Of a stretch of 64,000 nucleotides of DNA, positions 1 through 23,718 are shown one piece after another. The DNA is taken from assembly GCF_011764445.1 (NCBI RefSeq), contig NZ_BLPG01000001.1, positions 7,395,001-7,459,000 of the forward strand, given 5' to 3'. The position numbers and the translations under genes were made by a program. Source of the DNA: Phytohabitans rumicis. GTDB taxonomy: Bacteria > Actinomycetota > Actinomycetes > Mycobacteriales > Micromonosporaceae. The notes below the pieces were generated by a model. That model did not search any database. It saw only the letters and a program-made list of their open reading frames with translations, and was not told the DNA's origin. Positions within the stretch are counted from its first letter, which is position 1; each line of letters begins with the position of its first letter.

Positions 1-461
1 AGAAGGCGGAGTTCGAGGGCAAGGTCACGAAGATCCAGGAGACCTACCGCAAGATCATCGACGAGACCTCGTTCGTCGACGTCAACCGCTGGGCCTCGTC
101 CGATCCCGGAACGTTCGCCATCGCGGACATCGGTTGCTCCGAGATCGCCAGGGACGACGTCGGCATGGACTTCCCTCAGGCGGCCGCCGGCGCCGATCCC
201 CTGGCCTGGACGTCCCTGCCATTCGAGCAGATCGGCAGCCTGTCCAAGTACGACGTGATCACCTACCCCGTCGACGCCAAGGGTCAGCCGACAGAGCCCT
301 TCGTGCCGGTGGTCGAGACCAACACCTGGAAGGCGCTGCCTGCCGTGAGCTCCGGTCGCGCGCTCGGAGTCTTCTGCCCCGGCAACAACGCCTACGGATC
401 CGTCGTCCGATACCTGGACTCGCTAGCCAGCGTACTGGCGACCCTCCCCGCCACGAAGTGA
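1..461 (+). CDS. Iron-siderophore ABC transporter substrate-binding protein, C-terminal part (5' end outside window)
   Basis: The reading frame enters at base 3 and ends at TGA 459-461, giving the last 152 residues of a FecB/FepB-type periplasmic-binding fold. Visible text includes VDVNRWASSDPGTFAIADIG and the C-terminal helix SVVRYLDSLASVLA typical of this fold. Such proteins are normally lipoproteins that hand ferric siderophore to a FecCD permease; the signal peptide is not in the window. The next gene starts at GTG 458, inside this stop codon, and it and the two following genes are two permeases and an ATPase, which fixes the role well. No substrate can be named. Confidence 0.88.
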   Translation, partial: KAEFEGKVTKIQETYRKIIDETSFVDVNRWASSDPGTFAIADIGCSEIARDDVGMDFPQAAAGADPLAWTSLPFEQIGSLSKYDVITYPVDAKGQPTEPFVPVVETNTWKALPAVSSGRALGVFCPGNNAYGSVVRYLDSLASVLATLPATK

Positions 462-3488: not shown

Positions 3489-5224
3489 TGTACGCCGATC
3501 AGGGAGGCCTGGGACGAGGACCACTGACGCGGTGGCTGCCGGTGCTGTGGCAGGTTCCCGCCGAACCTCCCGATGTCCGGCCGTTCGAGGTCAGAGCAGG
3601 CGACCGTCCCGACAGGTTCGTGGCGCGCGTCATCTTCTCGCTACCGCGGGTCACCATCCCGGCGATGCTGCTGGCGATCGTGTGGCAGGTCGGCGAGTCG
3701 GCAGTCCCGGTGGTGATGGGCCTCGCGATCGACCGGGCACTCGCAACCGGGGATGCGGGACAGCTGGGGATGTGGCTCGGTGTGCTGGTCGCCCTGTATG
3801 TCGCTTTGACGGCGGCGGCCGGGCTCTCGCTGCGGCTGACCGCCTATGCGGTGCAGTTGCTGCAGCACCGGCTCCGCGGCGTCCTTTCGATCGGCGTGCT
3901 GCATCCGGTCGGCGGCACCGCCCGTGCGCCGGACGGCGGCGTGGTCTCGGTGATGACGAACGACGTCACGCGCCTGTCCAACGCGGTGATCCTGGTGATC
4001 ATCCCGGTCTCGAGGATCACGGCCATCGGATTCATCGCGGTATCGCTGCTGGCGACGCACTGGCTGCTCGGACTCGTGGTGCTGTTCGGGGCGCCGGTCG
4101 CGGTCTGGTTGATGGGCAGACTCAGCAAGCGGCTCTCCCGAGACACCGGTGAGTACCAAGCGCTGCTGGCCTCCACGGTCGGGCAGGCAACTGATCTGGT
4201 TGCCGGCTACCGGGTGATCAAGGGCGTGGGCGCCGAGGCCGAAGCCACCCGGCGGTATCGGCGAGCCAGCGGGGAGGCCCTCGTCGGCGCGCGGCGCAAC
4301 GCGGGCCTGCTCGGGCGGTTCCTCTTGGGCTCGGGCGTCGTCAACGGCGTGTTCATCGTCGCGGTGGCCGGGCTGGCGGGCTGGTTCGCCGTGGATGGGC
4401 GGCTAAGCGTCGGTGGGTTGATCGCCGCTGTCGGCCTCTCCCAGGCCCTGCTGCCGCAGATGCAGTGGATCGCGAGCCTCTCCATCCCCAACCTCGCCAA
4501 TGCCCGCGCGGCCTCCGCACGCCTCCTCGACGTACTACCGTTCGTCCACACCTCCGCCCCCGCTGATGGGAGCCCGTCACGGGCACCCGCGTCGGCGGCG
4601 TGCACTCTGGAGGTGGCCGGTGAGGGCGTGCACGTCCAGGTCGAGCCCGGCGAGCTCGTCGGAGTGCGCGCCGACGACCCGACCGCCGCACGCATCGCCG
4701 AGGCACTGCTGAGCCCGGATCACGACAGTGGCATCGAGGTGCGCCTCGACGGACTCGCGGCACAAGAAATGAGCCCGGCCGAGTACCACTCCCGGGTCAC
4801 CGTCGCACCGCACCGGGTGACCCTGTTCACCGGCACGATCCGCGACAACCTCACCGCGCCGACGAGCACCACGAGCGCCCCCGAGCGGCTGGGAGCCGCG
4901 GTGCGCGCGGCGGCCTGTGACGACTTCGCCGCCGATCTCGACGATCCGGTCGGCGAGAACGGCAACCGCCTCTCCGGCGGCCAGCGGCAGCGCATCGCCC
5001 TCGCGCGGGCTCTGGCGACCGATGCGCCGGTGCTGGTGCTGCACGAGCCGACCACCGCGGTCGACTCGGTGACCGAGCAGACGATCGCAGGGCGGCTGCG
5101 CACCCTCCGCGCAGGCCGCTCGACGCTGCTGATCGCCTCCTCCCCGGCACTGCTGGGCTGCTGCGACCGGATCGTCGACCTACTCGCGGACGCGCCGGTA
5201 CTCGACCGGACGGAAGCGAGATGA
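3488..5224 (+). CDS. ABC half-transporter (membrane domain plus degenerate NBD), subunit A
   Basis: 578 residues. ATG 3488 overlaps the stop of the ATPase gene. The N-terminal exporter-fold membrane domain covers roughly residues 40-330 and the NBD covers about 365-575. The NBD is degenerate: the Walker A position reads GVRADDPTAARI with no GKS/T, and Walker B reads VLVLHEPTT with His in place of Asp. Its signature LSGGQRQRIALARAL is perfect. It therefore needs a partner that supplies Walker A, which is the next gene (4-base overlap). Pairs of this type next to FecBCD operons resemble IrtAB-like siderophore half-transporters. Direction of transport and substrate cannot be read from sequence. 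Confidence 0.88.
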   Translation: MYADQGGLGRGPLTRWLPVLWQVPAEPPDVRPFEVRAGDRPDRFVARVIFSLPRVTIPAMLLAIVWQVGESAVPVVMGLAIDRALATGDAGQLGMWLGVLVALYVALTAAAGLSLRLTAYAVQLLQHRLRGVLSIGVLHPVGGTARAPDGGVVSVMTNDVTRLSNAVILVIIPVSRITAIGFIAVSLLATHWLLGLVVLFGAPVAVWLMGRLSKRLSRDTGEYQALLASTVGQATDLVAGYRVIKGVGAEAEATRRYRRASGEALVGARRNAGLLGRFLLGSGVVNGVFIVAVAGLAGWFAVDGRLSVGGLIAAVGLSQALLPQMQWIASLSIPNLANARAASARLLDVLPFVHTSAPADGSPSRAPASAACTLEVAGEGVHVQVEPGELVGVRADDPTAARIAEALLSPDHDSGIEVRLDGLAAQEMSPAEYHSRVTVAPHRVTLFTGTIRDNLTAPTSTTSAPERLGAAVRAAACDDFAADLDDPVGENGNRLSGGQRQRIALARALATDAPVLVLHEPTTAVDSVTEQTIAGRLRTLRAGRSTLLIASSPALLGCCDRIVDLLADAPVLDRTEAR

Positions 5225-6972
5225 CAGAGACGACCACAGGCGATGCGCTTCCCGTCGCAAACGGGCGGGAGACGGCCCGAGAGGTGTGGCGGCTCAGCCG
5301 TGGGCATCGGCTCCGGCTCGCCGCCGTCGGCGTGGTGGGAATCGCCAGCACCGCCGTCGACCTGATCGTTCCCGTGGCGATCGGATTCCTCGTCGACCGA
5401 GTGCAGGCAGGCACCGCCGATCTCGGCACCGTGCTGACGCTCACCGTGACCATGATGGTCTCGGCGGTCCTCGGGGCCGCCGGCACCGCGGTGACGATCG
5501 TCCTGGCGACGCGCGTCTTTCACAATATTCTGGCCGCGCTGCGTGAACGGCTCGTGGAGCGTGGTCTGACGCTGCCGCAGCACGTCGTCGAGCGCGCCGG
5601 CACGGGGGACCTGATCTCCCGGTCCAGCGACGACGTGACCGCCGTGGCGGATGCCGCCCCCGCGGTGATCCCGGCCCTCACGGTCGCCGCGTTCACTATC
5701 GTCGTGTCGCTGGGCGGGCTCGCGGCACTGGAATGGCCCTACGCCGCCGCGTTCGCCGTCGTGCTGCCCGTCTACGTGGTCGCCCTGCGCTGGTATCTGC
5801 GCACCGGGCCAGCGGTGTATCGCGCCGAGCGCGCGGCGATGAGCGCCCGCGCGCAGCAGATCGTCGAGTCCCAGCGCGGCTACGCCACCGTGCTCGGCTT
5901 CGGACTCGCTGCGCAGCGACACCACGCCGTGATGACGGGCTCCTGGGGCGTCGCGGTGCAGGCGCTGCGGGCCCGCACGGTGCAGAGCATGTTCAACGCT
6001 CGCCTGAACCTCGGCGAATGCCTGACCCTGGCCGCCGTGCTGGTCGTCGGCTTCTTCCTCATCGACCGCGGGGCCTCCACCGTAGGTGGAGCTACCACCG
6101 CCATGCTGCTCGTCCTGCGCCTGCTCGGGCCGGTCAACCAGCTGATGTTCGTCATCGACGACCTCCAGTCCGTCCTCGCCTCACTGAGCCGCATGATCGG
6201 CGTCGCCACCACGCCGGCCGACACGGACGCGGCGGACGGAGCGGATGGGCAGGGACCGGCATTCGAGACGGGCGCCGCCGTATGGATCCGCGACGTCGCG
6301 TTCCGGTACGGCGACGGCCCCCTCGTGCTCGACGAGATCACCCTCGACATTGCCGCCGGTCAGCACGTCGCCGTGGTCGGCGCCTCCGGGGCCGGCAAGA
6401 CCACGCTTGCCGCCGTGATCGCCGGCATCCACCCGCCCTCGACGGGAACGGTGGCCCGCCCCGACCGCACCGTGGTCATCACCCAGGAAGTCCATGTGTT
6501 CGCCGGGACGCTGCGCGACAACCTCACCCTCGCTGCACCCTTGGCCACCGACCGTGACCTCCACACAGCACTCGACGCCACCGGCGCGACCACGATCCTC
6601 GACCTGGCCACCGACGGGCTGGACACCCTCGTCGGCACCGGCGGGCATCCACTCACCGATGCCCAGGCACAACAGCTCGCCCTCGCCCGCCTGCTGCTCG
6701 CCACTCCGGAGCTGGCGATCCTCGACGAAGCGACCGCCGAAGCCGGCTCCACCCACGCCGGCCTCCTCGACCGCGCAGCCGATGCCGCGCTGGCAGGTCG
6801 TACCGGGCTCGTGATCGCCCACCGACTCTCCCAAGCCGCCGCCTGCGACCGGGTCGTGGTGATGGAGCACGGACGGATCATCGAGGCGGGTACCCACGAG
6901 GAACTCGTAGCGGCGCAGGGCACCTACGCACGCCTGTGGGAGGCATGGGACTCCAGCCGGGGCGCCCAATGA
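5221..6972 (+). CDS. ABC half-transporter (membrane domain plus NBD), subunit B
   Basis: 583 residues, starting at ATG 5221 within the upstream stop (ATGA). The exporter-type membrane domain lies at about residues 25-310 and the NBD at about 345-580. Here Walker A (GASGAGKTT) and Walker B (LAILDEATA) are good, but the signature is lost (LTDAQAQQLALARLL instead of LSGGQ). This is the mirror image of subunit A, so the heterodimer would have one complete and one dead ATP site. A putative iron-chelate or export function is inferred only from the siderophore import genes upstream. Confidence 0.88.
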   Translation: MTETTTGDALPVANGRETAREVWRLSRGHRLRLAAVGVVGIASTAVDLIVPVAIGFLVDRVQAGTADLGTVLTLTVTMMVSAVLGAAGTAVTIVLATRVFHNILAALRERLVERGLTLPQHVVERAGTGDLISRSSDDVTAVADAAPAVIPALTVAAFTIVVSLGGLAALEWPYAAAFAVVLPVYVVALRWYLRTGPAVYRAERAAMSARAQQIVESQRGYATVLGFGLAAQRHHAVMTGSWGVAVQALRARTVQSMFNARLNLGECLTLAAVLVVGFFLIDRGASTVGGATTAMLLVLRLLGPVNQLMFVIDDLQSVLASLSRMIGVATTPADTDAADGADGQGPAFETGAAVWIRDVAFRYGDGPLVLDEITLDIAAGQHVAVVGASGAGKTTLAAVIAGIHPPSTGTVARPDRTVVITQEVHVFAGTLRDNLTLAAPLATDRDLHTALDATGATTILDLATDGLDTLVGTGGHPLTDAQAQQLALARLLLATPELAILDEATAEAGSTHAGLLDRAADAALAGRTGLVIAHRLSQAAACDRVVVMEHGRIIEAGTHEELVAAQGTYARLWEAWDSSRGAQ

Positions 6973-7160
6973 GCGGTGATACCGAGAAGGCTGACGGGTT
7001 TGACCGATCGCGAGCGGTACGACGTACCCCGACACCTCGCACCAGAACCGAGCGACGTGCGCAATCGAAGGTGACCTGGAACTGCCTGACCGACGACATC
7101 GCTCCACCTGACGGGCTCGGGGTCCTTGGCCGACTCTGGAGCCGGCCAAGCCAGAGATGA
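6969..7160 (+). CDS. Small basic ORF or truncated gene at the end of the siderophore operon
   Basis: A 63-residue reading frame begins at ATG 6969, which overlaps the stop of the half-transporter gene (ATGA) exactly as the other operon genes do. The product is Arg-rich (SRAVRRTPTPRTRTERRAQSK) and matches no family I recognise. The good coupling suggests that a real gene started here. The short length and the IS element about 170 bp downstream suggest that its 3' part may have been lost or replaced. It could also be non-coding. Confidence 0.3.
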   Translation: MSGDTEKADGFDRSRAVRRTPTPRTRTERRAQSKVTWNCLTDDIAPPDGLGVLGRLWSRPSQR

Positions 7161-7398
7161 TGGCAATCATTGTCGAAACCTGTCCGGCAGCGAACCGACC
7201 GCCTGCGGCGGCCGTCACACTGATTCGCACATCTAACGAGATCAGCTACTGTTTCAGCAGTTCAGGCGGCTTGCGAGCGGTTCTTGGTTCGTCATGTTTC
7301 CCCTCTCAGAGACGCGGGAGCAAACGCTGAAGTTCCCCCGGTTTCCGGACAACCCAGGTGTGAGGGCAGCAGTTGTCCTCACTGAGAGGAGTCCGGAC

Positions 7399-7689
7399 AT
7401 GCCCGCACCACATCCTGCGGAGTTCCGCCGTCGTGCGGTGGAACTGGCGCGCCGGCGTGAGAAGCCGGTGGCCGAGCTGGCCAAGAGTTTGGGGATCTCC
7501 GAGTCGTGCCTGCGGAACTGGATGTCCCAGGCCGACGTCGAGGAAGGGCACCGTGAGGGCCTGACCGGCGCTGAACGCGAGGAGCTTCGTGTGCTGCGCC
7601 GTCAGGTTCGGGTGCTGGAGATGGAAAAGGAGATCTTGGTAAAAGCCGCGGCCTTCTTCGCCCAACAGAACGTTCTGCCACCCCGATGA
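7399..7689 (+). CDS. IS3-family transposase OrfA
   Basis: 96 residues, starting at ATG 7399, just inside the left inverted repeat. The N-terminal helix-turn-helix (EFRRRAVELARR... LAKSLGISESCLRNWM) binds the element ends. It is followed by a leucine-zipper-like coiled coil (LRVLRRQVRVLEMEKEILVKA). OrfB begins at ATG 7686 in the -1 frame, overlapping the OrfA stop as ATGA. An OrfAB fusion by -1 frameshifting or simple translational coupling is therefore expected. Confidence 0.93.
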   Translation: MPAPHPAEFRRRAVELARRREKPVAELAKSLGISESCLRNWMSQADVEEGHREGLTGAEREELRVLRRQVRVLEMEKEILVKAAAFFAQQNVLPPR

Positions 7690-8570
7690 TCTACCGGTTC
7701 ATCGAGGTGGAGAAGGCCACCTACCCGATCACCCTGCTGTGCCGCACCCTGGGCGTGTCCCGTTCCGGGTTCCACGAGTGGCGCACCAACGGCCCCTCCG
7801 GCCGCGATCTGGACGACGCCTATCTGACCAATGCGATCATCGACATCCACGCCGACTCTCGCGGCAGCTACGGCTCGCCGCGGGTACACGCCGAACTACG
7901 GCTCGGCCACAAAATCCACTGTGGACGTAAACGGGTCGAGCGGCTAATGAGAGACGCTGGCCTGCAAGGCATCCACCGCCGCCGGCTCCACGGCTGCACC
8001 GTCCGCGACCCCGAGGCGGCACCCGCCGACGACCTGGTCGCACGCAAGTTCACCGCCGAGCAACCCAACCAGCTCTGGGTCGCCGACATCACCCAGCAGA
8101 TGACCTGGCAGGGCTGGCTTTACCTCGCCGTCGTCCTGGACGTGTACTCCCGCCGCGTGGTGGGCTGGGCCATCGGCGACCACATGCGAGCCGAATTGGT
8201 CTGCGACGCCCTGGACATGGCCACCTGGACCCGCCGACCCACCGACGGCACCGTGATCCACCACAGCGACCACGGCGCCCAGTACACCTCCTACATCTTC
8301 GGCAAACGGCTCCGCGACGCCGGGATCCTCGCCTCCATGGGCAGCATCGGCGACTGCTACGACAACGCCATGGCCGAAGCGTTCTTCGCCAGCCTGCAAA
8401 CCGAACTGTTGGACCGGCACACCTGGCGCACCCGCGACGACCTCGCCAACGCCATCTTCGAGTGGATCAACGCCTGGTACAACCCGACCCGGCGACACTC
8501 CGCCCTGGGCTACCTCAGCCCCGTACAGTACGAACAAACCCACCACACGCCCGCTCAACGAGCAGCGTGA
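7686..8570 (+). CDS. IS3-family transposase OrfB (DDE integrase)
   Basis: 294 residues with the HTH_21 region at the N-terminus (GSYGSPRVHAELR) and an rve integrase core. The DDE residues are visible: Asp in LWVADITQQ, Asp in VIHHSDHGAQYTS, and Glu in NAMAEAFFASLQTELL. The C-terminal RRHSALGYLSPVQYE is the usual end of the family. It starts at ATG 7686 inside the OrfA stop codon and ends 40 bp before the right inverted repeat. Confidence 0.95.
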   Translation: MIYRFIEVEKATYPITLLCRTLGVSRSGFHEWRTNGPSGRDLDDAYLTNAIIDIHADSRGSYGSPRVHAELRLGHKIHCGRKRVERLMRDAGLQGIHRRRLHGCTVRDPEAAPADDLVARKFTAEQPNQLWVADITQQMTWQGWLYLAVVLDVYSRRVVGWAIGDHMRAELVCDALDMATWTRRPTDGTVIHHSDHGAQYTSYIFGKRLRDAGILASMGSIGDCYDNAMAEAFFASLQTELLDRHTWRTRDDLANAIFEWINAWYNPTRRHSALGYLSPVQYEQTHHTPAQRAA

Positions 8571-9618: not shown

Positions 9619-10296
9619 ATGAGATCGGTCGGCATCGGGCGTCCAGAGCCCTCGCCCGCGGAACACCCGACGTGTCGGTATGAGGCTGTCCCACCCACGA
9701 CCCCCGGCGATCCCGCCGCCGGACCGGATGACATCGTCGCGGCGGCCGCCCTAGCCGCATTGGAGACGGTGGATCGGCTCCGTCGGGAGATGCCGGTCCG
9801 GATCGTGGCTGGTGAGCAGGTTCTACGCCTGTCCAACTGGCCAGCGAGCCTGCGCCGGCTGGACGGGGCACGCGCCCGCACCGAGGTCCGTTCGCTCGCC
9901 GCACCGACCGCCGGCTCCCACAGTTCCAGGGAGCTGGTGGTGGTACTCGACGTTGACCGGCCCGGGACCGACGGGGCGCATGCAGTCTTGTTGCACTGCC
10001 AGCCCGGCGCCGCGGTGGCGGTCACCGCCCGCTGCGACCCGGCGGACCCATGGTCGGTGAGCCTGCCCGCGGTGGCCGAGATCTTCGCCGAGGTACTCAC
10101 CGCCCTGCTCGCCGATCCGCTGCTGCCACCGGCGGGGCCGGCGGGATCGGCTACACGTCCCGGACCGTCGCTCTGGGCCCTTGCGCCGGCCGCCGGGTCG
10201 ATCACGGTCCGTTCCAGGCCATTCCGAGGATGGTCGAGGAGCGTACCGACCTACACCCTGACCGGCCGGCGATCTCGTTCCGAGGCCGGTCGCTGA
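9619..10296 (+). CDS. Hypothetical protein upstream of the NRPS-like enzyme (possible condensation-domain-like tail)
   Basis: 225 residues from ATG 9619, with GGGGAG 7 bases upstream. A low-complexity Pro-rich N-terminus is followed by a folded-looking region (VAGEQVLRLSNWPASLRRLD, LVVVLDVDRP, EIFAEVLTALLADPLLP). That region recalls the C-terminal part of an NRPS condensation-type domain, but the similarity is weak. After about base 10155 the frame becomes Arg/Ser-rich and unconvincing, just where the adenylation-domain frame (one base back) becomes convincing. This may thus be the N-terminus of the next protein separated by a one-base loss, or an independent overlapping gene. Confidence 0.45.
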   Translation: MRSVGIGRPEPSPAEHPTCRYEAVPPTTPGDPAAGPDDIVAAAALAALETVDRLRREMPVRIVAGEQVLRLSNWPASLRRLDGARARTEVRSLAAPTAGSHSSRELVVVLDVDRPGTDGAHAVLLHCQPGAAVAVTARCDPADPWSVSLPAVAEIFAEVLTALLADPLLPPAGPAGSATRPGPSLWALAPAAGSITVRSRPFRGWSRSVPTYTLTGRRSRSEAGR

Positions 10297-13232
10297 CTTA
10301 CCGGCAGCTCGACGAGCTGGCGAACGGCCTAGCCACCACGCTGGCGGCACGTGGCGCCCGGTACGGAGACGTGGTGCCAGTCCTGCTCGCCGACGGCCTC
10401 GAACTGCCGGTGGCCTACCTGGCCCTGATGAAGCTCGGCGCCGCGTTCGTCCCGCTCGATCCCGCCTGGCCGGCACACCGCCTACGCGCCGTGGCGCAGG
10501 TGATCGAGCCCCGGTTAGTGCTGGGCGCGACCGCCGAGCCGCTGCCCGGGAATGGATCCGCCCACGTCGTTACCGTGGCGCTCGACGACATCGTGTCAAC
10601 CGCCCGACGCCCGCAGGTGCCGCTCCAGCCGGACGACCTGATCTACGGAATCTTCACCTCCGGCACGACCGGGACGCCGAAGTGCGCGATGAACCACCAT
10701 GCCGGGCTGACCAACCGGTTTCGCTTCATGACGCGGTACTTCGGGGCCACCGGCGACGAGGTCGTACTGCAGAACAGCAGGCACACCTTCGACTCTTCGG
10801 TGTGGCAGATGTTCTGGCCGTTGACTACCGGCGGCCGGGTCGTCGTACCGAGCTCGGGCGAGTTCCTCAACCTCGAGTACGTCCTGGACACTGTCGCCGC
10901 CGAAGGCGTCACCGTAACCGACTTCGTCCCGAGCATCTTCAACGTCCTGGTGGCCATGGTGGACCGGGATCCGGTCGCCCGCAGCAAACTCGCCTCCCTG
11001 CGCGCCCTGGTGGTCGGTGGCGAGGAGATCAACCCCGCCATGGTGCACCGGCTTCGGGAGCTGCTGCCGGACGTCAGGGTCACCAACGGGTACGGTCCGA
11101 CCGAGGCCTCGATCGGCATGATCTTCCACCCAGTGTCGCCCGAGGACGGCGAAGTCGTACCGATCGGTCATCCGATCGACAACTGCTATGCCGCGGTGCT
11201 CGACCCGGCCATGCGGCCATTGCCGCCCGGCGCTACCGGTGAAATCGTTATCGGTGGCGTCTGCCTGGGAGCCGGCTATCTCGCCGCGCCCGCCCGCACC
11301 GCAGAAGCGTTCGTCCCGAACCCGCTGCCGGAGATCCCCGGCAGCCGGTTGTACCGGACCGGAGACCTGGGCTATCTCGGCACCGACGGGCGGCTGTATT
11401 TTGTGGGCCGCCGCGACTTCCAGGTGAAGATCAACGGCATACGGGTGGAGTTGGGCGAGATCGAGGCGGCGGCCGCCCGGTGTCCCGGCGTCCGGCAGGC
11501 CAAGGCCCTGGTGGCGAGGCAGGGCAGGCTCCGCTCCCTCGCCGTCGTCGCGGCCGCCGAGGAGGGGCTCACCGAGCAGGCACTGCGAGAGCAGCTGGCT
11601 CGGCTGCTGCCCCGGACGAGCCTGCCCCGGCATATCCTCCTCCTGCCCCAGCTGCCCCTGACCGACAACGGCAAGGTGGACCGGAGGCGGCTGCAGCAGC
11701 TCGTCGACCACAAGCTGGCCGAGGCCGCGGTACGCCTGGCCGAGGCCGCCGAGCCCCAGACCCTGCTGGACCGGGTGCTGGCCGTGTTCCAGGACGTCCT
11801 CGGCCAGCCCGAGCTGACCCGCGACAGCCACTTCCTGGCCGCCGGCGGCGACTCCCTGCAGGCGGTCTCCGCCACCATGGCACTGACCGAGGTGAGCGGG
11901 GTGAGTGTCGGTGTCCAGGACCTGTTCGACTGGCCGACACCGGCCGGTATGGCCCGGTTCCTCGCCGAGCGGAGCGGCGGATTGGAGCCCGCCGAGACGG
12001 AGGACGACCTGGTCGAACGGGACAGCCGCCTCCCGGCGACGCTGACCATCCACGCCGCCGATTCGCGGGTGACGCTAAGGACCATCCTGGTCACCGGCGC
12101 CACCGGGTTCGTGGGCAGCCGCCTGGTGCACGAGCTGCTCACCGCAACCGATCTGTGGGTGTGTTGCCTGGCCCGGGCCGCCGGTGACGCCGATGCCACC
12201 GACCGGGTGATCCGGGCGCTGACCGAGCGTGGGCTGTGGCAGCCGCGATTCGCGGACCGGCTCACGGCGTTCCGGGCCGATCTGGGCCGCCCGGATCTCG
12301 GGCTGGACCGCCCGACCTGGGACCACCTCTCGCGAACCTGCGACGCCATCCTGCACAACGGAGCACTGGTCAACTTCCTCTTCGACTACCGGGCACACCG
12401 GCCGGCCAACGTCCACGGCACCGCCGAACTGCTCCGGCTGGCCATGGCGCACCAACCGAAGCCCCTGCACTACATCTCCACCCTGGGCACCCTGGACACC
12501 GAAGCCGCACTACAGCCGCATCCGCTCGGCGAGGAGTATGCCTCGGACATGGCCGTGCCGCCGCACAGCGGTTACAGCCGGTCGAAGTGGGTGGCCGAGC
12601 GATACCTGGGCACCGCCCGGCGGCGGGGTGCGCTCGTCACCATCCTCCGCCTCGGCGAGGTGATGCCCGCCGCGGACAACGGCCACCCCAATGAGCGGGC
12701 CCTGACCCACCTCCTGCTCGTAGCTTGCCAGCGGCTCGGCATACGTCCGGCCGCAGCGATCGGAACGGACTACTCGCCGGTGGACTACGTCGCTCGCAGG
12801 GCCGTCGCCGCCGTCGTCGACAAGCACGTCTGGGGCCGGACGGTCCACATTTTCCATCCGCGGAGCACGATCTTCACCGACCTGCCCTCCAAGGTCGGCG
12901 GCCCCCTTCCGCGGGTCACCTGCACACAGTTCGTCACCAGCCTGCGTGCCGCCGCCAGCGACACCGCCGACCGCCGGCTCGCAGCATTGTTGTCGCTGCT
13001 GCCTCAGCAGCGCACGGCCGGCGAGGAGGACCTACGAATGGCCTTCGAGGGGCTGCTCGTCGACAATCCACGGCTGTTTCGCCGGGACGAGTGCCACCGG
13101 CTGGAACAGCGCTGGAACCTGACTGGCGACCAGCCGCTGCAGACCTCGATCGCGGCTTATCAGGCCTGGCTGCGCGAGCACGAGACAGCAGACGGCAGTC
13201 CTCGACTGCTGTTGCCGGCCGCACCGCTCTGA
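10230..13232 (+). CDS. NRPS-like A-T-R enzyme (adenylation, carrier protein, thioester reductase)
   Basis: 1000 residues from ATG 10230; the N-terminal limit is uncertain because the upstream sense lies in another frame. Adenylation motifs are A1 LTYRQLDELAN, A3 FTSGTTGTPK, A4 FDSSVWQMFWPL, A5 NGYGPTEAS, A7 YRTGDLGYL, A8 GRRDFQVKINGIRVELGEIE and A10 NGKVDRR. The Asp in FDSS suggests an alpha-amino-acid substrate. A carrier protein follows (FLAAGGDSLQAV, Ser as phosphopantetheine site). Next comes an NAD(P)-binding reductase domain (VTGATGFVGSRL and YSRSKWVAERYL), which should release the thioester as an aldehyde or alcohol. It has no condensation domain of its own, as in carboxylate-reductase-like single modules. 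The downstream genes supply reduction, sulfation, a shell protein and export. Confidence 0.9.
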   Translation: MVEERTDLHPDRPAISFRGRSLTYRQLDELANGLATTLAARGARYGDVVPVLLADGLELPVAYLALMKLGAAFVPLDPAWPAHRLRAVAQVIEPRLVLGATAEPLPGNGSAHVVTVALDDIVSTARRPQVPLQPDDLIYGIFTSGTTGTPKCAMNHHAGLTNRFRFMTRYFGATGDEVVLQNSRHTFDSSVWQMFWPLTTGGRVVVPSSGEFLNLEYVLDTVAAEGVTVTDFVPSIFNVLVAMVDRDPVARSKLASLRALVVGGEEINPAMVHRLRELLPDVRVTNGYGPTEASIGMIFHPVSPEDGEVVPIGHPIDNCYAAVLDPAMRPLPPGATGEIVIGGVCLGAGYLAAPARTAEAFVPNPLPEIPGSRLYRTGDLGYLGTDGRLYFVGRRDFQVKINGIRVELGEIEAAAARCPGVRQAKALVARQGRLRSLAVVAAAEEGLTEQALREQLARLLPRTSLPRHILLLPQLPLTDNGKVDRRRLQQLVDHKLAEAAVRLAEAAEPQTLLDRVLAVFQDVLGQPELTRDSHFLAAGGDSLQAVSATMALTEVSGVSVGVQDLFDWPTPAGMARFLAERSGGLEPAETEDDLVERDSRLPATLTIHAADSRVTLRTILVTGATGFVGSRLVHELLTATDLWVCCLARAAGDADATDRVIRALTERGLWQPRFADRLTAFRADLGRPDLGLDRPTWDHLSRTCDAILHNGALVNFLFDYRAHRPANVHGTAELLRLAMAHQPKPLHYISTLGTLDTEAALQPHPLGEEYASDMAVPPHSGYSRSKWVAERYLGTARRRGALVTILRLGEVMPAADNGHPNERALTHLLLVACQRLGIRPAAAIGTDYSPVDYVARRAVAAVVDKHVWGRTVHIFHPRSTIFTDLPSKVGGPLPRVTCTQFVTSLRAAASDTADRRLAALLSLLPQQRTAGEEDLRMAFEGLLVDNPRLFRRDECHRLEQRWNLTGDQPLQTSIAAYQAWLREHETADGSPRLLLPAAPL

Positions 13233-13276: not shown

Positions 13277-14259
13277 ATGCGCTATCGCAGGTTGGGCCGC
13301 CTCGGCTGGGAGGTCAGCGAGGTCGGGTACGGCATGTGGGGTATCGGGGGCGGCCCGGGTGGCTTCACCGGATGGGACTACGACGCCGCGCCCGGATGCC
13401 TCGACGAGGCCGTGGAACTGGGCTGCAACTTCTTCGACACCGCCTGGGTCTACGGTCGGGGCATCAGCGAGCAGCTGCTCGGCGCGCTGCTGCGCCGCCA
13501 CCCGGACCGGCGGCTCTACGTCGGCACCAAGATCCCCCGAAGAACCGGGAGTGGCCGCCGAAGCCGGACGACCGCTTGGACGACGTGTACCCGACCGACC
13601 ACATCCGCGAGTACACCCAGCGCAGCCTGGACAACCTCGGGGTGTCCCGGATCGACCTGCTCCAGTTCCATGTCTGGGAGGACCGCTGGGCCACCGAGGA
13701 GCGGTGGCAGGAAGCCATCACTCAGCTCAAGCGGGAGGGTCTAGTCGACGGGGTCGGCATCAGCGTCAACCGCTGGGAGCCGACCAACTGCATGGCGGCG
13801 CTCGACACCGGGTTGATCGACGTCATCCAGGCGATCTACAACATCTTCGACCAGGCCCCGGAGGACGACCTGTTCCTCCGGGCGCAGCGCGACGACATCG
13901 GCATCATCGCCCGGGTCCCGTTCGACGAGGGCAGCCTGACCGGCACGCTCACCGCCGACAGCACCTGGCCGCCGGAGGACTGGCGCAACACCTACTTCGG
14001 GCCGGAGAATCTCCTGCCGAGCGTGGAGCGCGCCGAGCGGTTGGCCGCAGACCTACCCGATGGCATGACCATGCCCGAACTCGCGCTCCGCTTCATCCTG
14101 CACCACTCGGCCGTAAGCACCGTCATTCCCGGCATGCGCCGGCTGGCGCACGTCCGCGCGAACATGGCGGTCAGCGACCGTACGCCCCTGGAGGAGAAGC
14201 AGCTGACACGCCTGCGAGACCACCGCTGGGACCGCACTCCGACATGGTGGTCACAATGA
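13277..14259 (+). pseudogene. Aldo/keto reductase, frameshifted at a C run
   Basis: The gene starts at ATG 13277 and reads as an AKR through the first 85 or so residues. FFDTAWVYG contributes catalytic Asp and Tyr, and VGTKI contributes Lys. The frame fails right after the CCCCC run at 13534-13538. One extra C restores the text to KIPPKNREWPPKPDD. The rest is clean in the other frame: LLQFHVWED with the His, GISVNRWEP, and ALRFILHHSAVSTVIPGMR. The intact protein would be about 327 residues, normal for the family. Its position suggests that it acts on the aldehyde released by the A-T-R enzyme or on a later intermediate. A sequencing deletion is at least as likely as a true mutation. Confidence 0.82.
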
Positions 14260-14313: not shown

Positions 14314-15051
14314 GTGCCAGTGATCGCCATGTGGGCCCACCCGCGGGCGCTCAGCACCGCCTTCCTGCGCATGATGATCGCGCGCGGTGATGTCACCGTG
14401 GTCCACGAGCCACTGGTCACCCTCGTCGACGAGGGAAACGTCCCGCTGCCGACCCGCGACGGCGGCACCGTCACGGTCACCAGCCTGGGCGACGTCCTGG
14501 CGCACCTGGCGGACCTCGCGCGAGACCGTACGGTCTTCGTCAAGGACACCCTGGAATACCGCTACGCGTACCTCTTCGACCACCCCGACGAGATCGCCGA
14601 CTCCGTGCACACCTTTATCGTCCGGCACCCGAGCCGGACGATCAGCTCGCACTACGCGATTAAACCCACGGTCACCTGCCCAGAGATCGGCTATGAGCAC
14701 CAGTACGAACTGTTCGAACATGTCCGCCGGGTTGCGCGGAAGGCTCCGGTGGTGGTATCGGCCGAGGACCTGCTGCGCGACCCCGAAGGGACCATCGCGG
14801 CCTACTGCGCGTCGGTCGGCCTGCCGTTCCTGCCCGAGGCGCTGCACTGGACACCCGAGGACCGCGCGGAGTGGCAACGGACCCGCAAGTGGCACCTCGA
14901 CGTGGAACGCAGCCACGGATTCGCGCCCGTGGCCAAGTCGTTCGAGGTCACGGTCGAGAACAGCCCGCAACTGAGGTCCTACTACGACCATCAGTACCCC
15001 TTCTACGAGCGACTGCTCCAACATGCCATCGCCCCGGGAGACAACACATGA
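14314..15051 (+). CDS. Sulfotransferase-family protein
   Basis: 245 residues from GTG 14314, with GGGAGG at 14304-14309. The N-terminal AMWAHPRALSTAFLRMM matches the 5'-phosphosulfate loop of PAPS-dependent sulfotransferases. VRHPSRTISSHY matches the 3'-phosphate-binding motif (Arg and Ser). FVKDTLEYRYAYLF and the C-terminal helix region are typical of the small bacterial sulfotransferase-like group. It would transfer sulfate to a hydroxyl or amine of the cluster product. It overlaps the next small ORF as ATGA. Some members of this superfamily are not proven sulfotransferases, so the reaction is inferred. Confidence 0.8.
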   Translation: MPVIAMWAHPRALSTAFLRMMIARGDVTVVHEPLVTLVDEGNVPLPTRDGGTVTVTSLGDVLAHLADLARDRTVFVKDTLEYRYAYLFDHPDEIADSVHTFIVRHPSRTISSHYAIKPTVTCPEIGYEHQYELFEHVRRVARKAPVVVSAEDLLRDPEGTIAAYCASVGLPFLPEALHWTPEDRAEWQRTRKWHLDVERSHGFAPVAKSFEVTVENSPQLRSYYDHQYPFYERLLQHAIAPGDNT

Positions 15052-15206
15052 CCACTGCCGCCATCCCGACCCCCCGCGTCTCGACCGACGTGTCCCCCGG
15101 CCAGTTGTTCGCCCAGGCGTTCGCCGCCGACCCCACGAGCGCCGACGTGCGCTTCGACTACACCATCACCGACGCCTTCCGGCCGACGAAGGAACGCCCC
15201 GGGTGA
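15048..15206 (+). CDS. 52-residue ORF directly before the encapsulin-like gene; perhaps its N-terminal arm
   Basis: ATG 15048 overlaps the sulfotransferase stop, and TGA 15204-15206 overlaps the GTG start of the next gene. The product contains VSTDVSPGQLFAQAFAADP and ends FDYTITDAFRPTKERPG. Read through with one extra G at 15201-15203, it continues seamlessly as ERPGVTVRNLFRKRPVD into the shell protein. The joined product would be about 290 residues, the normal size of an encapsulin. Either this is the N-arm of the shell gene cut off by a lost G, or it is a separate coupled small protein. The first reading is favoured because other genes in the window lose a G or C in runs. Confidence 0.55.
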   Translation: MTTAAIPTPRVSTDVSPGQLFAQAFAADPTSADVRFDYTITDAFRPTKERPG

Positions 15207-15919
15207 CCGTACGGAACCTGTTCCGCAAGCGGCCGGTCGACATGGACCCCGTCCGCTTCTGGTGCGAGACCCGGCCGGACGCGGACGAGGCGGAGACGGT
15301 GCACGAATCGGACCTGCGGCGGGAGGCGGCCTTCCGGTTCGGCATGGCCGAGGCGCAGGTGCACCCGATCCGGGCCTGGGTGCAGGTACCCGAGGAGTTG
15401 ACCCGGGACCTCGATGCCCTGGCGGTCTTCGTCGACTACCGGCTCCTGGTCCGGCTTGCCACCGCGGAGAACCAGGCCCTGACCCTTGGCGAGCACGGTC
15501 TGCTCCGTCACCCCGAGATCGCCCGGCTGCCGTACGACGGCGACTACCTGACCGGGCTCCTCGACGCCTGCAACGAGATCGAGCAGACCGGGGCCACCCC
15601 GCACGCCATGATTGTCAACCCGCGTGACTACTACACCCACCTGCTCGGGCACGGCTCGCTCCTGACCGACTTCGAGCGCAACGGCATGCAGATCAGCCGT
15701 ACTCGCATGGTGGCGCCGGGCACGGCAGTCGTCGGGGACTTCGCCATGGCCGCGCGCCTGCTCGACGCCGGCCAGTCAGCGATCCGGGTCACGGAGCCGC
15801 CCGCGGGCATCTTCGCCACCGACGGCCTGGCGGTGTGCGCGGAGATCCATGAAGGACTGGCCGTCCACCTACCGACGCACATCCACCACGTCGTTCCGGC
15901 CCAGGGAGGTCCAGCATGA
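15203..15919 (+). CDS. HK97-fold encapsulin-like shell protein in a biosynthetic cluster
   Basis: 238 residues from GTG 15203. The text follows the HK97 major-capsid/encapsulin plan. NLFRKRPVDMDPVRFWCE is followed by an E-loop-like segment (residues about 28-55). WVQVPEELTRD then leads into the long spine helix LDALAVFVDYRLLVRLATAE. The A-domain text is TPHAMIVNPRDYYTHLLG, RMVAPGTAVVGDFAMAARLL, and LAVCAEIHEGLAVHLPT. No phage genes (portal, terminase, protease, tail) are nearby. Instead it sits between a sulfotransferase and an MFS exporter behind an NRPS-like enzyme. This fits the natural-product-associated (family 3) encapsulins described in actinobacteria. It would form a protein cage around one of the cluster enzymes; the cargo is unknown. 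Confidence 0.75.
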   Translation: MTVRNLFRKRPVDMDPVRFWCETRPDADEAETVHESDLRREAAFRFGMAEAQVHPIRAWVQVPEELTRDLDALAVFVDYRLLVRLATAENQALTLGEHGLLRHPEIARLPYDGDYLTGLLDACNEIEQTGATPHAMIVNPRDYYTHLLGHGSLLTDFERNGMQISRTRMVAPGTAVVGDFAMAARLLDAGQSAIRVTEPPAGIFATDGLAVCAEIHEGLAVHLPTHIHHVVPAQGGPA

Positions 15920-17088
15920 CCGCGATCGCCGGCAAATTGGCGTTCTACCGGCCGTTCGTGCCACTGTTCGGCACCATCTTCCTGTGCCTGCTCGGCGTGG
16001 GCGCGGCACTGGCAACGCTGCCCTTCTACGTCCTCGACGAACTGGACGGAAACCGGGTCGACGTCGGGGTGGTCATCGCCGCCATCGCGGTGTCCGCCGT
16101 GATCGCCCGACCGATCGCCGGCCGCTTCGGGGACCGGCACGGCTACAAGACCGTGATGCTCGCCGGAGCCGCAATCTGCGCCATCGCCAGCGCTGCGTAC
16201 CTGATCGCCGGGAACGTGCCTGTGCTGGTGGCGGTGCGGGTACTGCACGGCATCGGCGAGGGGGCGGTCTACACCGCCGGGGCGGCGTGGCTCGTGGCGC
16301 TGTGCCCACCGGAGCGGCGCGGCCGAGTGGTCGGCCTGTACGGCATTCACATGTGGCTGGGCATCACACTCGGCGCGCTGCTCGGAACGGTCGCGCAGCG
16401 CACCGGCGGGTACCCGACGGTCTGGCTCTCCTCCGTCCTTCTCGCGCTGGTCGGGGCGGGGCTGGTGGCCTCCCGGCAGCGGCCGGAGCAGCCCGCGTCG
16501 AAGGGCCGGGCAGGCTTCATACCCGGCAGTGCCGTGCTACCCGGGATCGCGCTCTCCACGGCCGCGCTCGGCTACGCCGTGCTGGCCGCGTTCGTAGCGC
16601 TGCACCTAACTGACCGGGGGATCACCAATGGGATCGCGGCGTTCAACGCGTTCGGCGTCACCTACGTCGGCGTCCGGCTCTTCGTCGGCGGTCTGCCAGA
16701 CAAGCTCGGCCCCGGCCGGGTGGCGATCTGGTCGGCCCTGGTGGAGGCGGTCGGATTGCTCCTAGTCGCGGTCGCGCCCAACCTGATCGTCGCAGTCGCC
16801 GGTGGCCTGGTGATCGGTGCGGGGCTCTCGCTGCTCTTTCCCGCCCTGGCGCTGCTGGTCATCAACCGGACCGATGCAGCCCATCAGGGGGCCGCGCTGG
16901 GGGCGTTCACCTCGTTCTGGGACATCGGCCTGGCCGCCGGTGGCCCACTGGCCGGGATCGTGGCGAGTGTAGCCGGGTATCCGGCCGCCTTCTACACGAT
17001 GCTCGGTGCCGCCCTAGTCTCCGCAGGCATCTCTGCGATCAACTCACTCCCCCGGCGTCGACTGGTCGACCAGGGAGTGCCCGGCTGA
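15916..17088 (+). CDS. MFS transporter (likely product exporter)
   Basis: 390 residues, about 12 transmembrane helices, starting at ATG 15916 within the shell-protein stop (ATGA). Motif A is present after helix 2 (GRFGDRHGYKTV), and helix 4-5 text includes VLHGIGEGAVYTAGAAWLVAL. This is the drug/metabolite efflux branch of the family. Being last in the coupled row, it is the probable exporter of, or self-resistance to, the cluster product. It ends at TGA 17086-17088, just before a strong hairpin shared with the convergent gene. Confidence 0.88.
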   Translation: MTAIAGKLAFYRPFVPLFGTIFLCLLGVGAALATLPFYVLDELDGNRVDVGVVIAAIAVSAVIARPIAGRFGDRHGYKTVMLAGAAICAIASAAYLIAGNVPVLVAVRVLHGIGEGAVYTAGAAWLVALCPPERRGRVVGLYGIHMWLGITLGALLGTVAQRTGGYPTVWLSSVLLALVGAGLVASRQRPEQPASKGRAGFIPGSAVLPGIALSTAALGYAVLAAFVALHLTDRGITNGIAAFNAFGVTYVGVRLFVGGLPDKLGPGRVAIWSALVEAVGLLLVAVAPNLIVAVAGGLVIGAGLSLLFPALALLVINRTDAAHQGAALGAFTSFWDIGLAAGGPLAGIVASVAGYPAAFYTMLGAALVSAGISAINSLPRRRLVDQGVPG

Positions 17089-17147: not shown

Positions 17148-18287
17148 TCACGGCAGTCGTTCCGGGCTGGCTTGCCGGTCGGTGAACCGATCCGGGGCCA
17201 GGGGTGTGGGATCGAGCCCGATATCGGCGGGGGTGGCACCGACGGCCAGCGACGCGATCAACGCACCCACCGCCGGGGCCACCTGGACGCCGTAGCCGCT
17301 GAGCCCTGCCAGCCACAGGAAACCGGGCGCATCCGGCGCCACACCGACCACCGGAACATCGTCCGGCGCCGCCGTGCGCAGCCCGGCCCAGGCCCGCCGG
17401 ATCCGGCGGACGGTCAGGGTGGTGGCCTCCTCGAGGCGTACGGCAGCGCTGGCGACGTCGAGGTCGTCGGGGCGCACGTCGCCCGCGGGCATCGGCGTGG
17501 CGTCCACAGGCGAGACCAGCAGCTGGCCCGACTCCGGCTTGAAGTAAAACGTCTCGGTGACGTCGGCGACCATCGGCCAGCGGGTGGCATCGAGGCCGTC
17601 GGGCACGTCCACCAGGAATGCGGTGCGCCGCAACGGGGTCAAACCCACTGGACGCAACCCGGCCAGGCCGGCCAACTCGTCCGCCCAGGCACCGGCAGCG
17701 TTGACCACCACCGGAGCCCTGAACTCGCCCAAACCGGTCGAGGCGTGCCACACCCCGCCCCGGCGGGCCAGGGCGACCACCCGGGCTGAACGCAGCACCT
17801 GTCCACCGGCGGCGCGGATCCCCCGCAGGTACGCCTGGTGCAACGCATTCACGTCGATGTCCTGCGCGGCCGGCTTCACCATCGCGCGACGGCACCACTC
17901 GAGCCGCACAATCGGGCAGTAGACAGGGATGTCGTGGATAACGATTTCCCGCGCCGGCCTGGAGGCCTCCGCGCCGTCGCGGAGGGCGGCTTCGAAACGC
18001 TGCTCAGCACCGGCTGGACAGAGCGTAAGCACGCCTCTCGGGGTGAGCAACGGGTACTCGGTGAACCCGGGCGGGGGCGTGCTGAGGACATCACGGCTCC
18101 AGCGAGTCAGCGCGCGTACCGCCGGACCGCCGTAGTACTCAGAGAAGAACGCGGCAGAGCGGCCGGTGGCGTGGTAGCCCAGCGCCTCCTCCATCTCCAA
18201 CAGCAGCACACGCCCGTGGGCAGCGAGGTGAAACCCGGCGCTGGCACCACTGATACCGCCACCGATGACGAGAAAGTCGATCTCCAC
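17148..18287 (-). CDS. FAD-dependent amine/amino-acid oxidoreductase (DAO family)
   Basis: 379 residues when started at GTG 18287 (VEIDFLVIGGGISGASAGF). The N-terminal dinucleotide-binding motif GGGISGASAGF and the C-terminal FLWLAGLSGYGVQVAPAVG identify the D-amino-acid oxidase/glycine oxidase/sarcosine oxidase superfamily. It faces the biosynthetic genes and may oxidise an amine or amino acid related to the product, but this is inference. The same strand has an open, sensible-looking 82-residue stretch just upstream in another frame (ATG 18535). One extra C at the run 18291-18293 would fuse it on as an N-terminal extension. Confidence 0.82.
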   Translation of the reverse strand: MEIDFLVIGGGISGASAGFHLAAHGRVLLLEMEEALGYHATGRSAAFFSEYYGGPAVRALTRWSRDVLSTPPPGFTEYPLLTPRGVLTLCPAGAEQRFEAALRDGAEASRPAREIVIHDIPVYCPIVRLEWCRRAMVKPAAQDIDVNALHQAYLRGIRAAGGQVLRSARVVALARRGGVWHASTGLGEFRAPVVVNAAGAWADELAGLAGLRPVGLTPLRRTAFLVDVPDGLDATRWPMVADVTETFYFKPESGQLLVSPVDATPMPAGDVRPDDLDVASAAVRLEEATTLTVRRIRRAWAGLRTAAPDDVPVVGVAPDAPGFLWLAGLSGYGVQVAPAVGALIASLAVGATPADIGLDPTPLAPDRFTDRQASPERLP

Positions 18288-21368: not shown

Positions 21369-21387
21369 ATGTTCAGAACGAACGTTC
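21333..21387 (+). promoter_or_regulatory. Promoter with tandem TetR-type operators over a probable leaderless start
   Basis: TTGACA lies at 21333-21338, with a weak -10 (CACTCT, 21357-21362) 18 bases on. That places transcription start at or next to ATG 21369. Two copies of GAAC-N4-GTTC (21363-21374 and 21376-21387) cover this start. No Shine-Dalgarno sequence precedes the ATG, which fits a leaderless mRNA. The TetR gene at 23715, last in the operon, is the natural candidate to bind here. Confidence 0.6.
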
Positions 21388-22931
21388 AGAACACCTCGCT
21401 CCGGGGGAGGGTCGCCGTCCCGGCCCGGGCCGACGTCGCAGTCGTCGGCGGCGGCCTAGCCGGGATGGCGACGGCGTTGCGGCTGCAGGCCGCTGGCCTG
21501 TCCACGGTGGTCATCGAGGCTCACGGACACGCCGGAGGATGCGCCGGCTATTGGCGGCACAAGGGGTTCTCGTTTGATGTCGGCGCGACGACGCTGGTCG
21601 ACTTCGCTCCGGGTGGCGTTGGCGCGGAATTCCTCGACTCCGTGGGCGCGCCGCCGCCGGAGGGTGAACACCTGCCCGGTTACGTCGCTTGGCTTCCGGA
21701 CCGGGCCGTCACGTTGCACCGCGACCCAACCCGGTGGCAAGCAGAAAGGCTCGCCGCCTTCGGTGAAACGCCGGGCCATCGCGCGTTCTGGCGCGAGCTC
21801 GACACCCTCGCTGACGTCTTCTGGCGGGCCAGCCGCGCCGGGATCCGCATGCCGCTGCGCCGCCCGTCCGACGTCGTGCACAATCTGCGCGCGGTCGGGC
21901 TGCGCCACGCGCCGCTGGCCCGGCATCTGACCGGCACGCTCGGCGGCGCGCTGCACCGGCACGGCCTTGGCCGGGACACGGCGCTGCGCGCGGTCCTCGG
22001 GATGCTCATCGAGGACACGGTTCACAGCAGCGTCCAGCGCGCCCCGCTGATCAACGCCGCGCTCGGCATCACCATCCGCGGGGCCGGCTTGACCCGCCAC
22101 GAGGGCGGCATGCACGGCTTCTGGCGTACCGTCGTGGGTCATTATCGGGCGCTGGGCGGGCAACTACGGACCGGAACGATCGCACGGACGGTGACCGGGC
22201 GGCCCGGCGCGTACACGGTGATGACGAACCGGGGAGTGACCACGGCGGCGCAGGTCGTCCTCGCGGTCCCGGCCCAGGTCACCGCAACTGTCTGCGGTGG
22301 GCTGCCGGTGGCGCGGCGGCTCGTCAGCTACCTCGATCGAGACCGCGACGGGCTCGGTGGTGCGATCGTGGTCTTCCTCGGCGTGCCCGACGAGGAGGTC
22401 GCCTGTCATGCCTTCACGCACCACCAGCTGCTCCAGGACTACGCGCAGCCGTTCGGTGACGGCAACAACATGTTCGTCTCCGTCTCGGCCGCGGGAGACA
22501 CCCTCAGCGCCCCACCCGGTCACCGTGCTGTCATGATCTCCACCCACACCTCGCTGTCCGCCTGGTCCGCGCACGACAGCAACCGGTACGCCCAGCGCAA
22601 AAAGGAGATCGGCGAGCACCTCGTCGCGCTCGCCCGCAGGGTCTATCCGCGGCTCGGGGAGCGTGCCGCGGTCTTCGACGTCGGCACGCCGCAGGCCTAC
22701 GAACGGTTCGCATTCCGCCCAGGCGGCGCCGTCGGCGGACCCCGCCAGACCTTGCGCAACAGCAACCAGTTCGCCGTCCCGCACGACCTCGGCGGGCCGG
22801 GTCTCTGGCTCGTCGGCGACTCCACGTGGCCGGGCCTGGGAACCGTCGCATGCGTTTTGGGGAGCCGCATCGTCGCCGACGGGATTCTGCGCGAACGCCG
22901 CCGGACACGCCCGGAAGGAGCGCCCCGATGA
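21369..22931 (+). CDS. CrtI/CrtISO-type FAD-dependent desaturase or isomerase
   Basis: 520 residues. An N-terminal FAD-binding motif (VVGGGLAGMATALRLQAAGL, then a Glu at VVIEAHGHAGG) is followed by GFSFDVGATTL. The C-terminal family signature is GPGLWLVGDSTWPGLGTVAC. This layout belongs to phytoene desaturases, carotenoid isomerases and related retinol-saturase-like enzymes. Carotenoid or other polyene lipid is a plausible substrate, but no phytoene synthase is nearby. The start ATG 21369 lies inside the operator and has no ribosome site, so leaderless translation is assumed. It overlaps the desaturase gene as ATGA. Confidence 0.82.
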   Translation: MFRTNVQNTSLRGRVAVPARADVAVVGGGLAGMATALRLQAAGLSTVVIEAHGHAGGCAGYWRHKGFSFDVGATTLVDFAPGGVGAEFLDSVGAPPPEGEHLPGYVAWLPDRAVTLHRDPTRWQAERLAAFGETPGHRAFWRELDTLADVFWRASRAGIRMPLRRPSDVVHNLRAVGLRHAPLARHLTGTLGGALHRHGLGRDTALRAVLGMLIEDTVHSSVQRAPLINAALGITIRGAGLTRHEGGMHGFWRTVVGHYRALGGQLRTGTIARTVTGRPGAYTVMTNRGVTTAAQVVLAVPAQVTATVCGGLPVARRLVSYLDRDRDGLGGAIVVFLGVPDEEVACHAFTHHQLLQDYAQPFGDGNNMFVSVSAAGDTLSAPPGHRAVMISTHTSLSAWSAHDSNRYAQRKKEIGEHLVALARRVYPRLGERAAVFDVGTPQAYERFAFRPGGAVGGPRQTLRNSNQFAVPHDLGGPGLWLVGDSTWPGLGTVACVLGSRIVADGILRERRRTRPEGAPR

Positions 22932-23718
22932 CCTTGCCCACCCTGCGGGAGCTCGGCGACGATCTGCTCGTAACGACGCCGCGCCAACGCACGATCGCCC
23001 TCGCCCGCCCTACGTAGGCGTTCTCTGCTTCGCCGCCGCCGTCTGGGCCGGCTGGTGGTGGCTCACCCCGGTGATCGTCTTCGGCACCTTCGTCGCCGTG
23101 GTCACCGTTACCCACGACGTGGTTCACCGCACGTTCGGACTCACCGAGACCGCGACTGACCGGTGGCTGTTCGCCCTCGGACTGGTTCTGCTCGAAAGCG
23201 GCCACGCCTACCGGATCACGCACCGCCAGCACCATCGCCTCTTCCCGAGCATCGACGACCCCGAGGGATATCCGGCGAACCTGTCCTTCGTCGGCGCCGT
23301 CTGCTACGGCCCGGTCTTCCTCGTACGCCTCTGGACCTGGGCGTTCGCCCGTGCTCGCCCGCGCGATCGCGCGTGGCTGCTTCTGGAGGCCTTCCTCCCG
23401 GTCGCCGCGGTCACCGGCGGCATCATGCTCTGGCCACTGACCCCGGGCGTCCTGGTCTACGTGGTGATGGCGATCGTCGGCAGCTGGGTCTACCCGCTTC
23501 TCACCGTCTACCTGCCACACCACGACTACGGCGACGAACCGTTGCGCCAGACCCGGACCCTGCGCGGCCGCATCATCCCGGTGATCTTCCTGGAGTTGAC
23601 CTACCATCTCGAGCACCACCTCTACCCGCGGGTCCCCAGCCACCACCTGCCCGAGCTCGCTCGCCGCCTCGACCCTTACCTCGCCCAGGCCGGTGTCCGA
23701 CCGGTCGCGGTGCCATGA
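22928..23718 (+). pseudogene. Membrane fatty-acid-desaturase-family protein, frameshifted near the N-terminus
   Basis: ATG 22928 overlaps the CrtI-type stop and reads MTLPTLRELGDDLLVTTPRQ to TAG at 23015-23017. One more C in the run 23008-23010 carries ALARPYVGVLCFAAAVWAG into the open frame that continues to 23718. The restored protein (about 263 residues) has several membrane helices and all three His boxes of di-iron membrane desaturases/hydroxylases: HDVVH, HRQHH and HLEHHLY. A carotenoid hydroxylase/ketolase or acyl desaturase role would fit its partner. The break looks like a base undercall. Confidence 0.78.

Follow-up and report, generated by a model that had tools for sequence, protein, structure and literature searches.

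A Family 3 encapsulin shell gene in a compact NRPS-like gene cluster of Phytohabitans rumicis, with a possible role in sulfation

A capsid-like protein encoded among biosynthetic genes raises two questions, namely whether it derives from a resident phage or forms a protein cage, and, in the latter case, which step of the pathway the cage would hold. Such a gene lies in the DNA under study, a stretch of 64,000 nucleotides of Phytohabitans rumicis (contig NZ_BLPG01000001.1, positions 7,395,001 to 7,459,000), hereafter the window. A preliminary description, made from the letters alone, had read it as an encapsulin-like shell within a small NRPS-type cluster and had suggested compartmentalised handling of a reactive aldehyde. 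Family 3, or natural product, encapsulins have been surveyed by Andreas and Giessen in 2021, who divide them into six classes (PMC8346489); in the portions of the survey considered here, sulfotransferase-SDR pairs, NRPS/PKS, AmCP and a Mesorhizobium type are named, and the sequestering of aldehydes or ketones is already proposed as a guess (section 9). According to the part of a further source consulted, the family was without experimental validation as of 2025 (PMC12140327), and the literature from 2022 on yielded no work that we recognised as dealing with a Family 3 shell.

The cluster and its shell gene

The genes of the cluster, with the evidence for each assignment, are as follows.

9619-10197, plus strand: N-terminal domain of the A-T-R enzyme, in frame 1, the C-terminal half of a condensation domain by predicted fold; frame change near 10197, before the A domain
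10198-13232, plus strand: A-T-R single-module NRPS-like enzyme (AMP-binding 5.9e-81, PP-binding 1.5e-11, NAD_binding_4 6.6e-52; Thioester-redct 245 bits, cut-off 213.35)
13277-14259, plus strand: aldo/keto reductase, AKR (Aldo_ket_red 1e-32); frame change near 13535; ortholog in locus L032 unbroken and 80% identical
14314-15051, plus strand: sulfotransferase of the Sulfotransfer_5 type (PF19798 3.8e-17, 62.9 bits, cut-off 23.2)
15048-15919, plus strand: Family 3 encapsulin shell (NF041188 on both pieces; 325.1 bits in a search of its own genome with the Family 3 model); one-base break near 15197-15203
15916-17088, plus strand: MFS exporter (MFS_1 1.5e-43; 81% identical in L032)
17148-18284, minus strand: FAD-dependent D-amino-acid-dehydrogenase-like enzyme, DauA-like (DAO 5.7e-47; DauA 1.4e-93 in PDB sequences)

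These Pfam matches bear out the neighbours named in the preliminary description, and add to them the minus-strand flavoenzyme, a cluster member which it had missed. Since A-T-R, AKR, sulfotransferase and MFS genes adjoin the shell and the set recurs in relatives (see below), its placement of the shell inside a biosynthetic cluster also holds. Upstream, an uninterrupted run of genes at 89-6972 encodes two permeases of the FecCD type, one ABC ATPase and two proteins resembling ABC exporters, which together look like an iron-siderophore uptake set; between this set and the shell cluster lies a transposase pair of the IS3 type (HTH_Tnp_1, rve; 7294-8570). Further downstream, at 21369-23718, a flavin amine oxidase-like protein overlaps a fatty acid desaturase.

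The 238-residue frame at 15203-15919 does encode the text cited in the preliminary description, and it matches the Family 3 encapsulin profile NF041188 (E 8.9e-94, 313.5 bits, cut-off 180) as well as Pfam Phage_capsid (PF05065; 4.5e-08, 33.3 bits, cut-off 24.2), both far beyond chance; the phrog_10 major head protein matches too. This frame, which covers positions 37-266 of the encap_f3 model, is not the whole gene, as a 52-residue piece at 15048-15203 covers positions 1-35 (29.1 bits). A search of the order with the shell model returned 39 genomes at E≤0.001, 24 of them above the cut-off and 15 below, the latter being excluded from the counts. In the 23 other genomes whose best match exceeds the cut-off, the match covers the model from position 1 (2 in one genome) to 266 and contains no stop, and therefore the GTG at 15203, taken earlier as the start, marks a frame break; judged by the model and the unbroken relatives, the shell starts at the ATG at 15048. 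The stop-start coupling described earlier does exist on both sides, as an ATGA at 15916 shared by shell and MFS genes and, upstream, as an ATGA at 15048 shared with the sulfotransferase rather than at the GTG at 15203.

Judged by its profile score, the gene is a Family 3 encapsulin, in line with the encapsulin kinship claimed at the outset. Family 1 membership was rejected: Linocin_M18 (PF04454) has no match in the genome itself, in a search whose control was positive in 3 of 14 genomes, and the shell piece matched PF05065 only. The HK97 plan proposed for the protein is likewise supported by structure prediction on an ortholog 82% identical to it, which gives the HK97 fold including the E-loop and the long helix. 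A profile of 20 Family 3 rows retrieved nine PDB sequences at 1e-5, all named as capsid proteins.

Kinship with capsids, through PF05065 and phrog_10, is what would speak for a prophage remnant. However, the Family 3 model scores 313.5 bits, and a Pfam scan of 16 other window proteins gave no phage structural family above cut-off, with no portal, terminase, protease or tail gene found beside the shell; the sole phage-named row, Phage_cement, scores 13.8 bits on the flavoenzyme, below its cut-off of 27. The earlier statement that no phage genes surround the shell is thus upheld. Furthermore, the identical six-gene setting recurs in Actinomycetota and Burkholderiales. The contrast with the HK97 major capsid protein gp5 is of the same kind, since gp5 has phage genes beside it and an N-terminal delta scaffold domain, the latter absent from the aligned part of the window shell. 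Taken together, score, neighbours and recurring setting refute in substance a prophage origin in situ, which we regard as next to impossible.

Frame breaks in the cluster

Three of the six cluster genes carry a frame break: A-T-R near 10197, AKR near 13535 and the shell near 15197-15203. In comparison with L032, a locus of identical gene content and order, the window is one base short in the shell gene and one base short in the AKR gene, both in C runs, and the residues of the AKR tetrad are distributed over two frames; the A-T-R frame change falls between the N-terminal domain and the A domain. These breaks, together with the presence of the shell in one of six genomes of the genus, could mean that in this strain the cluster consists of decaying pseudogenes. 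We have weighed this against the rest of the assembly by matching genes of genome G015 to 240 kb of the window genome near rpoB: in six of 78 testable core genes (26,124 residues) the matches are spread over two or more frames, and one of the six, a gene of 1296 residues immediately following rpoB, is rpoC to judge from its position and length. As a broken rpoC is not viable, the assembly carries frame errors, and it probably holds many one-base errors. The reverse direction gave frame changes in 2 of 92 genes, a comparison which is not a clean control, as it starts from the open reading frames of the window assembly itself. Nevertheless, three breaks in about 8.4 kb stand against about 0.6 expected from the core-gene rate, so that some decay may have taken place.

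Sequence divergence points the other way. The dN/dS values against L032 lie between 0.19 and 0.44 across all six genes (AKR C part 0.19, MFS 0.23, shell C part 0.24, flavoenzyme 0.28, sulfotransferase 0.39, A-T-R 0.44); for the flavoenzyme three offsets were tried and the one giving 69.6% identity was kept. The value for the C part of the shell indicates purifying selection in this pairwise comparison. With two of the three breaks in C runs and a frame-changed rpoC-like gene in the same assembly, we consider decay of the cluster improbable.

Relatives and companion genes

Protein identities between window and L032 are 64% for A-T-R, 75% for the sulfotransferase, 70% for the flavoenzyme and 83% for the shell, besides the AKR and MFS values listed above. 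More widely, a genome scan gave 128 shell relatives, of which the best 80 were retained, so that the sample leans to the window's kin; the counts below are restricted to these 80 named loci, as other fetched loci partly duplicate them. The window class comprises 11 of these best 80 of 128 loci. AKR, sulfotransferase and shell are present in all 11, the R domain in 10, and the A domain, MFS and flavoenzyme in nine each, several of the loci in which genes were not found ending at contig ends. Unbroken relatives of this class occur in Micromonospora, Catellatospora, Allonocardiopsis and Ramlibacter.

In a shell tree of 84 rows, from which L100 was left out as its shell frame has only 79 residues, the window class (13 rows including the window) forms one clade with support 100/99, found in 100% of bootstrap trees. 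The class occurs in Actinomycetota and Burkholderiales, and four Burkholderiales rows nest inside the clade among actinobacterial ones, which suggests a transfer across phyla. These are L059-L062, from Trinickia, Paracidovorax and Ramlibacter, and L034 joins them on a long branch. One genome, Nonomuraea sediminis H16431, carries two Family 3 shells (L053 and L086), one belonging to the window class and the other to the DegT class.

A sulfotransferase accompanies the shell almost throughout: of the best 80 of 128 loci, 76 have a match, 65 to the Sulfotransfer_3 type and 11 to the Sulfotransfer_5 type of the window, with no locus matching both. By tblastn, the R domain of the window is found in only 10 of the same 80. 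A sulfotransferase and a reductase both lie within 4 kb of the shell and on its strand in 73 of the 80, and the same sulfotransferase search gave none in 24 control stretches (469,902 bases), which are mostly rpoB regions and not random ones. The four loci lacking a sulfotransferase match are L063, L064 and L065 (Myxococcus) and L113, whose contig starts 0.9 kb before the shell. In L065 the shell adjoins a methyltransferase and a LysW domain; the stretches of L063-L065 hold no sulfotransferase match.

The kinds of enzyme differ by class: the reductase is an AKR in the window class and an SDR elsewhere, and the sulfotransferase belongs to PF19798 in the window class and to PF13469 elsewhere. 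Despite the changed families, both activities remain beside the shell. This swap is a single event on the shell tree, and therefore amounts to one comparison, not many. As to the other classes among the best 80 of 128, transketolase is found in 25 loci, 24 of which also carry LysX, and one locus of the transketolase class, L121, encodes a semialdehyde dehydrogenase, an amino acid kinase, an M20 peptidase and a transketolase; its frame at 5493-7046 has no match among PDB sequences. A further 40 loci hold DegT, methyltransferase or racemase-like genes, and in 34 of these an MFS protein is 44-63% identical to that of the window over the best match.

What the shell may hold

The A-domain pocket, read at the positions of the GrsA numbering, is D-S-W-D-(V/I)-G-(G/A)-I-G and conserved in 12 of 12 rows read; it gave no confident match to a substrate code. 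No separate peptide-bond former was recognised in the window class. In the sulfotransferase, a WAH.R..STA.. loop and a KDT.E.R stretch are kept in 13 of 13 aligned class members, and a search against PDB sequences gave no match at E up to 0.1. The flavoenzyme aligns over its full length with the D-arginine dehydrogenase DauA (317 bits) and keeps the Arg, Arg and Tyr positions that bind the carboxylate in DauA, whereas the position of Glu87, the side-chain residue, is V; D-arginine need therefore not be its substrate.

From the gene families, their order and conservation and the fold of the shell, as observed above, we infer a course of reactions in which A-T-R would load one amino acid and release it reductively as an amino aldehyde, AKR would convert this to the amino alcohol, and the sulfotransferase would sulfate the hydroxyl so formed. 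The shell, whose translation follows directly on that of the sulfotransferase, would assemble into a cage around the sulfation step, holding the sulfotransferase and perhaps the reductase and keeping a reactive sulfated intermediate from the cytosol, and the MFS protein would export the product. That a Family 3 shell thus serves a compact cluster making a small modified amino acid derivative, with the cage holding sulfation, is our tentative reading, to which we give a probability of about 0.42. The sulfation step is preferred over the aldehyde as the task of the shell because the sulfotransferase is present in 76 of the 80 loci and the R domain in 10.

These same counts, from the best 80 of 128 loci, bear on a rival reading, that the shell encloses A-T-R and/or AKR and confines a free amino aldehyde, in line with the handling of a reactive aldehyde suggested in the preliminary description and with the guess published for the family (PMC8346489, section 9). 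As a family-wide role an aldehyde compartment is counted against by this comparison of sequences, and an enzyme of more than 1000 residues such as A-T-R would presumably fill a small cage quickly. In the window class such a role may apply, since R domain and AKR occur together there, and in the class carrying a semialdehyde dehydrogenase aldehydes may have another source. On balance, we think it unlikely that the aldehyde is what the shell confines.

Termini of A-T-R, sulfotransferase and flavoenzyme were inspected across the class and gave no clear shared loading tag. The N-terminal domain of A-T-R, tried as a cargo-loading domain, was rejected on its predicted fold, which corresponds to a condensation domain's C-terminal half; carnitine and choline acyltransferases appear in its Z list at about equal Z, as expected for the condensation fold. 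That no tag was recognised, that shell and MFS genes overlap in the window and that Mesorhizobium members are fused to membrane helices, according to the portion of PMC8346489 considered, would agree with a structural or regulatory partner enclosing no enzymes, such as an open assembly, a membrane or exporter scaffold or a product carrier. However, structure prediction gives the complete HK97 fold, E-loop and long helix included, and relatives from Families 1 and 2 that share this fold enclose enzymes (PMC12140327, in the part considered), so that a partner of this kind appears quite unlikely.

If sulfation is indeed the step contained, one may ask what the sulfate is for. In the Wenker reaction the sulfate of an amino alcohol acts as a leaving group and is displaced by the neighbouring amine. 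Family 3 shells might accordingly house a biological counterpart of it, in which ring closure inside a virus-derived cage would give a strained, alkylating product, an aziridine for the window class and a similar N-heterocycle for the carrier-protein classes, which would stay there until export. Such a role would account for why it is a sulfotransferase, and not an aldehyde maker, that goes with the shell in 76 of the 80 loci, and by analogy it would fit the chemistry of the carrier-protein classes; as a whole we judge it a long shot. In the azinomycin/vazabitide type of pathway the aziridine-forming pair is AziU3/U2. No ring-closing enzyme was identified in the window class, and no ring-closing or DNA-repair gene is found among the frames conserved in it; the carrier-pathway genes of the azinomycin/vazabitide type (LysX, transketolase, kinase) occur in none of its 11 named loci. 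In the part considered of PMC9570651, the azinomycin aziridine has a sulfated precursor in a sulfate-leaving pathway, and the gene set of the window likewise suggests a sulfated amino alcohol intermediate; the transketolase, LysX, amino acid kinase and semialdehyde dehydrogenase of azinomycin/vazabitide resemble the genes of other Family 3 classes. Our literature search found no link between encapsulins and aziridines and no sulfotransferase-to-aziridine route.

The window cluster adds a member to Family 3, a class of shells known from gene surveys. With the family as described in the part of PMC8346489 compared, it shares the NF041188 profile, the kinship to PF05065 and a biosynthetic setting that includes genes for a sulfotransferase, a reductase and an NRPS-type enzyme; the combination of A-T-R, AKR and Sulfotransfer_5 type is absent from the text compared and may be one of its six classes. 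The window class is small, with six genes and a single NRPS-like module, and its A-domain pocket stays the same in both phyla; this, together with unbroken relatives in named strains, makes it a practical system for learning what the shell contains. If the link to sulfation is true, the chemistry to look for inside the shells would be that of sulfate esters rather than of aldehydes.
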